From positions 31,468 through 83,457 of the forward strand of contig PCUY01000071.1 of assembly GCA_002787815.1 (NCBI GenBank): a DNA stretch of 51,990 nucleotides, given 5' to 3'. A model generated the notes under the pieces. It made no database searches and was not told the origin of the DNA. It was given only the letters and a program-made list of their open reading frames with translations. This DNA comes from Bacteroidetes bacterium CG12_big_fil_rev_8_21_14_0_65_60_17. GTDB taxonomy: Bacteria; Bacteroidota; Rhodothermia; Rhodothermales; UBA10348. The translations under genes and the position numbers were made by a program. Positions 25,638 through 29,133 of the stretch are shown here, piece by piece. Within the stretch, counting starts at the first letter, position 1; the number at the start of each line of letters is the position of its first letter.

Positions 25638-28094
25638 TCAGCTCAACTTGAGTGCCCGCTCCCGATTCATACGCACATCCTGAGCGCGACGCAGGATGGC
25701 AATGACAAATCCGGCCGTCAGGATGATGAAACCAATCCAGACGAGAGAGATCAGGGGCTTTTCATAGGCCTGGACCACGAGCCAATCTTCTGGCGTGACC
25801 CGCACTCCGTCAATACCCAGCGTGATTTCTCCATTATCGACGTTCATCCCAGTAAAGGCTACGGTAATACCCCAGTCAGTGATGGTGTTCTGGACATATT
25901 GAACCGAGCGGTCCTGCATGATCATGTAGACAGGGCGAACCGTCTGCGTCCTTCCCGTGCTTACTTCGCGCACGTCAACGGCGGCGCCGACGGCTACATC
26001 GGTTGAGTCGGAGAGCAGATCTGGATCCACATTCAGTTGGAACTCACGGAATCGGATACTGTAGCGCCCCTCACCCACCAGGGCAGAATCGCCGCGCGCC
26101 AGACTCAACGTTCCCTGCCGCCCTTCTCCGTCCTGATCAAACATGACGTTCGGGGAGACGGCCAGGAAAAGGTCCTTCTCCACGAATTTGCGCACGTCCG
26201 GGTTCTGGATCCACTGCCCCTTGTTGGACAGGTAGACGACGGGATTCATATCGTACTGCCGTCCATACGGGTCCGTAATATCGAGCCGGTAGAAGGGGTG
26301 GCCCTCATCGTTGATGGCCTGTCCGGTGTATGAGAAGGTATACCCTCCCAGCGCCAGTGTCTGGCCGCGCGCAAGGATGAAGTTGTCCCGGTTGTCTCCA
26401 ATCTGCACGCCGCCCCGGTATACTGGCGAACTCAGCCCGGAGGACACAATGATGCCCAGTACCATGATGGCCAGGCCGACGTGGGCCATGGCACCGCCGG
26501 CAAGGCGCAGGTTGCCACGTGCAATGCGCCACAATACGGCGCCATTGCCGAACAGGGCAAAAAACGACACAAAAACAATCATCACAATGCCGAGCCCGTA
26601 ACTGTTGGCCGACCACCAGGCTTCCAGGGCATTTCCGATTCCTGCCGTCTGCAGTTCAGCCGAACCGGCGGCAACACCCTTCCACGCCACAACCTCGCGG
26701 AAAGGACTGAATATCATGAGAAGAATGGTGCCCACGACCGAAAAAATTACCGGCTTGACGAGCACGCGGTTGATGGTCTCGACGTTCATCTTGTGCCACC
26801 AGAAGAGCTGTGCCATGCCGGCGAGGAACATGAACACGACGGTCAGTGGCATGGACCAGGTATTGTAGAACTCAAGCGGAACGACGGACGGGCTGTCCCG
26901 GAATATGCGTCCGAGGATGGGTGAACTTGTACCCACGAGAACGACCGCCCCCAGAGCGCAGAGCAGCATGGCGCCCGAAAAGATCATGAACTCCCGGGAG
27001 AGAAGTTCGGGCTCCTCATTGGGTACAGGTAGCTCGCGGTACCGGATGGCAAACAGGCCGAAACCGAGCGCACCCATAGCCAGAATCCACAACAACAGCT
27101 GGTTATACAGGCCCAGATCCACGAAAGAGTGGACGGAAACCTCGCCCAGAATGCCTGACCGGGTCAGGAACGTAGAGTAGACGACCAGCATGTAGGCGCC
27201 AATACTCAGGAACAGACTGGCCTTCTGGCTGTGTCCCGACCGCTTCTGCACAATCATCGTGTGCAGGGCTGCCACGCCTACCAGCCAGGGAACGAGCGAC
27301 GAGTTTTCGACCGGGTCCCATGCCCAGTATCCACCGAAAGACAGTGTTACATAGGCCCAGTAGCCGCCCAGTACAATACCAACGCCCAGGGCCATTACGG
27401 CGAACAGTGTCCAGGGCAGGGCGGGACGTACCCACTCCGTGTACCTCCGCTTCCATAGTGCAGAAATTGCAAAGGCAAACGGCACAATCATGGATGCGAA
27501 ACCCGAAAACAATATGGGCGGGTGAATCACCATCCAGTAGTTGCGAAGCAAGTCATTGAGACCCTGCCCGTCGGCCGGTATAATCCCGGCCTGGATCATG
27601 GGCGCATCCGGGAATTTCTCAGCCAGCGTGGCAAACGGACTTGAGCCTATAGGGAGCGGCCCGAACTGGATACCTGCTATCATGGAAATCAGAAAGACCT
27701 GGCAGAGCGCTATGACAGCCATCGCCGGCTTGCGATATTCAGCCCCGGCCAGATGAATTACCGCGACGCCCGTCAGGGCGTTCAATACAATCCAGAGGAG
27801 GAACGAGCCCTCCTGTCCGGCCCACGCTGCAGAAATGAGGAATTTGAGCTCCAGATCGCGTGCGGTGTTGGAGTAGATGTACGCATACTCAAACGCATGC
27901 GTAATGCTCAGGTAGACGAGTACGCCAAATGCGGTCACGACAGCGCCTGTCATGACCCACCAGAGCGCTGCGGCGGTTCTGGCCAAGGCCCGGGGCTGGC
28001 TCTCGTCACGGGCCGATCTGAAAAACAGGATCCCGGACACCGTGCAACTGACGATGGCCACGAGGATCAGGACTTTTCCAATGATTCCGAGCAT
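25638..28094 (-). CDS. ccmF: Cytochrome c biogenesis haem lyase CcmF
   Basis: An 818-aa multi-pass membrane protein. The tryptophan-rich WWD haem-handling motif GGYWAWDPVENSSLVPW is at ~254-270. Conserved His motifs flank it (NYWMVIHPP at 185-193), and WAGQEGSFLLW is at 91-101. The C-terminal part has a large periplasmic domain (~620-780) and a final helix. It ligates haem to apocytochrome c in System I. The ATG at 28094 opens with a proper first helix; the frame continues upstream to 28238 but crosses a structured RNA gene and is rejected. Other ccm genes are not in the window. Confidence 0.92.
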   Translation of the reverse strand: MLGIIGKVLILVAIVSCTVSGILFFRSARDESQPRALARTAAALWWVMTGAVVTAFGVLVYLSITHAFEYAYIYSNTARDLELKFLISAAWAGQEGSFLLWIVLNALTGVAVIHLAGAEYRKPAMAVIALCQVFLISMIAGIQFGPLPIGSSPFATLAEKFPDAPMIQAGIIPADGQGLNDLLRNYWMVIHPPILFSGFASMIVPFAFAISALWKRRYTEWVRPALPWTLFAVMALGVGIVLGGYWAYVTLSFGGYWAWDPVENSSLVPWLVGVAALHTMIVQKRSGHSQKASLFLSIGAYMLVVYSTFLTRSGILGEVSVHSFVDLGLYNQLLLWILAMGALGFGLFAIRYRELPVPNEEPELLSREFMIFSGAMLLCALGAVVLVGTSSPILGRIFRDSPSVVPLEFYNTWSMPLTVVFMFLAGMAQLFWWHKMNVETINRVLVKPVIFSVVGTILLMIFSPFREVVAWKGVAAGSAELQTAGIGNALEAWWSANSYGLGIVMIVFVSFFALFGNGAVLWRIARGNLRLAGGAMAHVGLAIMVLGIIVSSGLSSPVYRGGVQIGDNRDNFILARGQTLALGGYTFSYTGQAINDEGHPFYRLDITDPYGRQYDMNPVVYLSNKGQWIQNPDVRKFVEKDLFLAVSPNVMFDQDGEGRQGTLSLARGDSALVGEGRYSIRFREFQLNVDPDLLSDSTDVAVGAAVDVREVSTGRTQTVRPVYMIMQDRSVQYVQNTITDWGITVAFTGMNVDNGEITLGIDGVRVTPEDWLVVQAYEKPLISLVWIGFIILTAGFVIAILRRAQDVRMNRERALKLS

Positions 28095-28191: not shown

Positions 28192-28394
28192 AAAAAAAGC
28201 ACGATCCCGCTCCAGAGGATGAGAAGAACCTCTCTCAACCACAGTGTGGGTACCGCTCACCGTCTTCCAACTTCCCCGGTTACACCGAAGTGCGGTCCGC
28301 CAAAGCGGATGGGGCCTGTCGTCCGACGTTGAAGATGGGTTCCCAGGACGTAAACGTTAGGTTCTTACTATGCGTCCAAAGCAGGCATCGTGCC
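28192..28394 (-). ncRNA. ssrS: Structured ~200-nt RNA, probable 6S RNA
   Basis: On the minus strand this gap between zapA and ccmF folds into one long, interrupted stem. The outer arms GCACGAT (28393-28387) and CCTGCT (28385-28380) pair with 28199-28205 and 28206-28211 with one bulged base. After an asymmetric loop, AAGAACCT (28366-28359) pairs with 28224-28231. Further in, TGGGAACC (28345-28338) pairs with 28247-28254 around one mismatch, and 28337-28328 pairs with 28261-28271. The tip holds small hairpins, one with a TTCG loop. Seven T follow the outer stem (28198-28192). Length, long stem with internal bubble, and position right after zapA are those of 6S RNA, which binds RNA polymerase holoenzyme. 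The 6S name rests on shape and neighbourhood, not on a model search. Confidence 0.62.
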
Positions 28395-28400
28395 TTGACA

Positions 28401-28432
28401 GCAACCTACGGGCTGGACACGTCATGATGCAA
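28401..28432 (-). promoter_or_regulatory. Promoter of the 6S-like RNA
   Basis: On the minus strand TTG (28432-28430), a 21-nt spacer, then TAGGTTGC (28408-28401), close to TAnnTTTG. The first base of the folded RNA (28394) lies about 7 nt further on, the expected distance to a transcription start. Confidence 0.45.
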
Positions 28433-28496: not shown

Positions 28497-28793
28497 TTAT
28501 CTCGAGAGCAGCGCGTCGGAGAGTTTGCGCTCCATGTCGGCCAGCGAGCTGTTCACATAATCGCCAGGGTCAAGCTTCCGGGCTCGTTCCACGAACAGTT
28601 CTTCGGTGACCGCAAGGCCCGAAATGAGCGCGGCCGTAAGGTCAGACTGTTCGGGATGTTCACGTTTGAAGGTGCGCAATTTGGCATCCAGATACTCGGC
28701 CATTTCGAGCGTAGCCAGTTCGTCCTCTTCCGTAACACGGAGTGTGTAATCCTTCCCGAGGAAACGAACCTTGATGGGCTTGAGTGCTGGCAT
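28497..28793 (-). CDS. zapA: Cell division protein ZapA
   Basis: A 98-aa protein with the ZapA pattern: an N-terminal beta-strand region (IKVRFLGKDYTLRV), a helix beginning EEDELATLEMAEYLDAKL, and a long C-terminal coiled coil. ZapA binds and bundles FtsZ filaments at the division ring. The ATG at 28793 is chosen because the extension up to 28844 overlaps the upstream gene and has no conserved character. It starts 2 nt after the preceding coiled-coil gene stops, so the two are co-translated. Its position just before the 6S-like RNA is a known conserved neighbourhood. Confidence 0.85.
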   Translation of the reverse strand: MPALKPIKVRFLGKDYTLRVTEEDELATLEMAEYLDAKLRTFKREHPEQSDLTAALISGLAVTEELFVERARKLDPGDYVNSSLADMERKLSDALLSR

Positions 28794-28794
28794 G

Positions 28795-29133
28795 TCAGGA
28801 CTCCGTTGATGTGGTTGCACGGGCCTGCTCCAGGTGGGCGTCAATCGATGCGATGAGTTCGCGGATGTGCTCCTTCAACTCGTCCGGACTCTCCGCGAAC
28901 GTAACGCTCGTACCTTCACCCTCCGGCAGTGCACCCTGGCGAAGCGACTCCACTTCCTTTCGCAGCGCTGCATTTTCCGACCGGAGCCGTGCCAGTTCTT
29001 TGACGATCAGGTCAATGCGGACCTTCAGACTTTCAAGGGCCCGGGTCGGTTTCTGATGCCTGGGCACATCAACGCGCCCCGTGCGACGTACCGGGTCCTG
29101 ATCGTCAGGAAACATGTTCTGTTGCTCGGCCAT
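28795..29133 (-). CDS. Coiled-coil protein between pheT and zapA (ZapB-like?)
   Basis: A 112-aa protein without signal peptide. After a polar N-terminus (MAEQQNMFPDDQDP) it is a heptad coiled coil (LESLKVRIDLIVKELARLRS, then NAALRKEVESLRQ), and a second helix runs from DELKEHIRELIASIDAHLEQ. It sits 15 nt after pheT and abuts zapA. Small coiled-coil proteins are common at this spot in Bacteroidota. A partner role for ZapA (as ZapB has in E. coli) is an inference from the position. Confidence 0.75.
   Translation of the reverse strand: MAEQQNMFPDDQDPVRRTGRVDVPRHQKPTRALESLKVRIDLIVKELARLRSENAALRKEVESLRQGALPEGEGTSVTFAESPDELKEHIRELIASIDAHLEQARATTSTES

Follow-up and report, generated by a model that had tools for sequence, protein, structure and literature searches.

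Which RNA, if any, is encoded in the gap between zapA and ccmF? The window, the whole analysed stretch of 51,990 nucleotides, holds at 28192-28432 an RNA-coding stretch of the minus strand of about 205 nt, located between these two genes. A minus-strand RNA of about 200 nt had been proposed for the gap after zapA by the first-pass annotation, and its coordinates and features were verified in the sequence. Most bacteria are known to have 6S RNA, a small RNA that mimics an open promoter and in this way blocks RNA polymerase. The RNA of the window is almost certainly such a 6S RNA (ssrS), with its own Bacteroidota-type promoter, a stop at a U tract and a presumed decoy-promoter mode of action. 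The locus is composed as follows:

28192..28399, minus strand: 6S RNA gene, in all probability; predicted transcript of about 205 nt, starting at 28399 or a few nt to either side
28497..28793, minus strand: zapA, upstream neighbour (PF05164, 42.2 bits, cut-off 23.8)
25638..28094, minus strand: ccmF, downstream neighbour (PF01578 and PF16327 above cut-off)

The ATG start of zapA was our choice. For ccmF, the ATG at 28094 is the start common to relatives; a longer, TTG-started reading frame reaching into the RNA (28238) is mechanical and was discarded. Further upstream, before zapA, are genes for a coiled-coil protein of 112 amino acids, pheT and pheS. The coiled-coil protein (28795-29133, minus strand), directly before zapA, has a weak likeness to DivIC and ZapB, in all cases below the Pfam cut-offs.

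At the Rfam gathering threshold, a scan of the whole window yielded tRNA only, the 6S RNA gene was not listed. In a permissive scan of a 701-nt stretch, RF00013 (6S) was the only one of 4227 families to match, over all 187 model positions from 28399 to 28192 with 22.3 bits (E 0.022). This is below the gathering score of 46.4 bits, a curator's cut-off for automatic listing and not a property of the molecule. Of the two Rfam models suggested for an Infernal check, RF00013 thus aligned over its full length at a sub-threshold score, whereas RF01685 (6S-Flavo) gave no direct match in the window, its own genome or the sampled genomes of the order. RF00013 also matched relatives at the same gene. As a survey tool for whole genomes of the order it was too insensitive, matching 3 of 60 at E 1.

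All 11 zapA loci fetched by protein similarity had the RNA gene directly behind zapA, in one case (L006) only its beginning before the contig end. A covariance model built from 14 sequences of relatives (R1) scored the window gene with 191.7 bits and found one copy per genome in 91 of 114 genomes of the order, with matches in 66 of the 77 more complete ones and in 25 of 27 genomes of the window's family. R1 also matched genomes of other classes in the phylum sample, and RF00013, run separately on this sample, pointed to the same places wherever both models matched. One homologue found by R1 (L083) reached 47.1 bits with RF00013, above the gathering score. A widened model (R2) recognised each of the five 6S-Flavo loci tested (E 8e-7 to 0.012) and so linked the two Rfam entries; E. 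coli ssrS was not matched by R2 at E 1.

One genus, g22 of family f13, was absent from the results of R1 and R2, with zapA present and several genomes 98-99% complete (G038, G048, G057, G097-G100, G102; loci L103-L109). R1 with filters off found nothing behind zapA in this genus and in a few other genomes lacking a match, and R2 run over the class still found nothing in g22. Either the gene was lost there or it has changed beyond the reach of the models.

The place of the gene was determined by comparing the RNA matches with PF05164 matches. In 75 of 89 genomes of the order the RNA lies 55-389 nt behind zapA on the same strand, and in all 24 other genomes tested, two of them 6S-Flavo carriers (G264, G285), it lies 34-156 nt behind. 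In the remaining 14 genomes of the order, including families f14, f4 and some others, the RNA is located away from zapA with its structure kept. In E. coli K-12, zapA and ssrS are 41 nt apart. The statement that 6S RNA genes commonly follow zapA holds across the phylum, and this comparison of genomes supports a single copy whose place is conserved.

A rod with internal loops, as described before, was predicted by folding of the window RNA. Its elements, all on the minus strand, are:

28375..28396, minus strand: closing (outer) stem, 5' arm, 21 bp with one bulged G (minimum free energy fold; RNAalifold on alignment A5 with compensatory changes)
28196..28216, minus strand: closing stem, 3' arm (minimum free energy fold; RNAalifold on A5)
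28359..28366, minus strand: 5' strand of helix P2, AAGAACCU, putative pRNA template, pairing with 28224-28231
28224..28231, minus strand: 3' strand of P2, AGGUUCUU (covariation; fold)
28345..28358, minus strand: 5' strand of the central bubble (14 nt), flanked by P2 and the GGG/CCC helix and aligned with the 5' bubble of RF00013
28232..28247, minus strand: 3' strand of the central bubble, 16 nt (RF00013 alignment; fold)
28336..28344, minus strand: GGGAACC strand closing the bubble on the inner side, pairing with GGUACCC at 28248-28256

Of the helix sizes given earlier, the 8-bp helix AAGAACCU/AGGUUCUU was recovered, but the outer stem of 13 bp was not: it is predicted with 10 + 11 bp around one bulged G (28396-28375 with 28216-28196).

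The absence of compensatory changes among relatives had been named as a refutation of the RNA; strong compensatory changes were found in all three alignments, A3, A7 and A5. In A3, 95.7% of the cells were paired and double changes occurred in 20 of 29 pairs, with a covariation score of 0.392 vs 0.187 after shuffling and at most 0.107 after sliding. The phylum-wide alignment A7 had 94.4% of cells paired, double changes in 23 of 29 pairs and a score of 0.509. Because A3 and A7 had been fitted to the model structure, their counts are biased in its favour. A5, a structure-blind alignment, was not fitted; here RNAalifold itself arrived at the inner stems as well as P2 and the closing stem, and 25 of the 39 pairs carried double changes. 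P2 was paired in 99.1% of cells and each of its eight pairs showed double changes somewhere in the order; for the GGG/CCC helix closing the bubble, 98.2% of cells were paired and four of six pairs had double changes. Structure and bubble are thereby supported by comparison of relatives.

The RNA is preceded by promoter boxes and ends in a T tract:

28430..28432, minus strand: TTG, -33-like (read from the sequence)
28401..28408, minus strand: -7-like box TAGGTTGC (read from the sequence and compared with relatives)
28192..28198, minus strand: U7 tract after the closing stem, putative intrinsic terminator (read from the sequence)

TTG and TAGGTTGC are separated by exactly 21 nt (28432-28401), in agreement with the promoter proposed earlier, and the spacing TTG-N21-TAnnTT is common to the close relatives L004 and L005. 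Upstream of the RNA, TTG-N18-22-TAnnTT was present in 7 of 42 relatives (0.6 expected) and the looser T[TG]G-N19-23-TAnnWW in 20 of 42 (3.4 expected); the expectations derive from mononucleotide shuffles and the 42 relatives are not independent. The seven T after the stem were likewise found, as U7 at 28198-28192, and the T tract is conserved within the window's family. In several relatives (L031, L033, L036-L040, L042-L044, L050-L055) a GC-rich inverted repeat or CCCCGG followed by T lies behind the rod and resembles a separate terminator, in contrast to the window, where closing stem and U7 form the terminator. Among 24 members of the order that do not belong to the window's family, 16 carry another motif, GGAAC, 22-57 nt upstream of the RNA (1.5 expected; L037, L039, L044, L048-L051, L053-L055, L057, L059, L060, L062, L064, L067); none of 18 members within the family has it. 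Several carriers have a TATA about 20-23 nt further downstream. As a -35 element, GGAAC is typical of ECF sigma factors, and control of the 6S RNA may lie with another sigma factor in these order members.

6S RNA of the E. coli type is described to release the polymerase when, during pRNA synthesis, its 3' bubble folds into a 9-bp hairpin that uses the 3' strand of P2; the smaller 3'-bubble hairpin of B. subtilis 6S-1 is present already in the free state (PMC8876501). A candidate for this element was found in the window RNA:

28217..28240, minus strand: predicted alternative 3'-bubble hairpin GG.UGAGAG-AGGUUC-UUCUCA.CC, exclusive with P2 (folding of relatives; fold with blocked template)

The hairpin pairs the 3' bubble strand with the 3' strand of P2. 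Since its arms shift in register on MAFFT alignments, each sequence was folded separately and the arms were listed explicitly instead of being counted by column. In 38 of 44 distinct relatives the hairpin was more stable than shuffles (Wilcoxon p 2.8e-10; the relatives are not independent). Its arms vary together, e.g., UGAGAG/UUCUCA in the window, UAUGAAG/CUUCAUA in L014 and GUGUCGA/UCGACAC in L007, so that the comparison speaks for the alternative hairpin. In the predicted fold of the window RNA, the expected pairs of the hairpin rose from 0.03 in the free state to 8.0, the complete hairpin, with 14 template nt blocked in imitation of a pRNA, and in L007 and L031 it was predicted already in the free fold. 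According to these folding predictions, the P2 strand would be able to refold on pRNA synthesis. For the 5' bubble strand, a hairpin surpassed the shuffles in 28 of 44 (Wilcoxon p 0.004); this weaker signal is not claimed.

Three other explanations have to be weighed. A chance fold of a GC-rich sequence could be suspected from the folding energy of the window RNA, with a z-score of only -1.72 and 11 of 200 shuffles folding as well. Energy alone is weak evidence and was dismissed as a proof of structure; it is the comparison of sequences that lifts the structure above chance. With homologues in 91 of 114 genomes that carry compensatory changes, a chance fold is refuted because of the covariation, and we assign it a negligible probability. 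A cis-acting structure, either the 3' UTR or terminator of zapA or a leader of ccmF, would suit the position between both genes on their strand, and the closing stem with U7 would be able to terminate transcription. However, the structure persists where the RNA has moved away from zapA, a covarying rod of about 200 nt with a conserved bubble exceeds the needs of a terminator, and promoter boxes precede the RNA, so this origin is very improbable.

Equally improbable is an RNA like Ms1, another polymerase-binding rod whose partner is the core polymerase and not the holoenzyme. PMC9130861 describes Ms1 as structurally related to 6S RNA, and rod shape alone cannot separate the two. Yet RF00013 matches the window RNA and several relatives over the full length, R2 reaches 6S-Flavo loci, and P2 and the hairpin of a pRNA-driven release are conserved among the relatives. 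Furthermore, Ms1 is located by HAD-hydrolase genes, whereas the window RNA follows zapA, as ssrS does.

The window RNA is a divergent but ordinary member of the 6S family: its rod, about 200 nt long, comprises a closing stem, a central bubble and an inner stem, its helices show compensatory changes, and it is present in one copy at a conserved place, often behind zapA. With RF00013 it shares the full-length alignment, the closing stem, the central bubble, the inner stem closed by GGG/CCC and the place behind zapA; it differs in the sub-threshold score, the P2 sequence AAGAACC/GGUUCUU and its own inner loop sequences. 6S-Flavo belongs to the same phylum, follows zapA in the two genomes examined for it and is found by R2, but its model is shorter (108 positions) and passes over the window and the sampled order genomes. 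In Bacteroides thetaiotaomicron, a member of the same phylum, 6S RNA and pRNAs have been seen experimentally (PMC7366714); the likeness to the window RNA drawn on here is that of phylum. No earlier report of a 6S RNA for the order was found in the open-access literature searched.

By analogy to the family, polymerase binding, pRNA start and growth-phase control may be expected in the window organism. Transcription would begin at the gene's own Bacteroidota-type promoter behind zapA and stop at the U tract after the closing stem. When nutrients run out, the rod with its central bubble would serve the holoenzyme of housekeeping sigma factor and RNA polymerase as a decoy open promoter. On return of NTPs, synthesis of a short pRNA by the polymerase would begin on the 5' bubble strand (28345..28358), probably at or just inside its 5' edge; with the template ...AAGAACCUAAC the product would be about 5'-(GUU)AGGUUCUUAC... 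Its synthesis would open P2 and free AGGUUCUU for the hairpin with the 3' bubble strand, and the polymerase would be released as in 6S RNA of the E. coli type.

The family itself is known; new are the comparative evidence, the link of two Rfam entries within the phylum and the predicted release hairpin. We see about equal chances for and against a wider reading. Under it, RF00013, RF01685 and R1/R2 would all match the same orthologous gene in Bacteroidota, which would have stood behind zapA since before the phylum split and would carry a 3'-bubble hairpin switch of the E. coli type (the preferred free fold already in some relatives); in one genus of the order this gene would have been lost or become unrecognisable. 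For annotation, a gap is closed: the standard Rfam scan leaves the 6S RNA of the order unlisted, and the new alignments and models recover it. These alignments and models also join the Rfam entries 6S and 6S-Flavo within one phylum, and a prediction of the release hairpin backed by covariation is supplied. The physiology to be expected would be that of 6S RNA in general.
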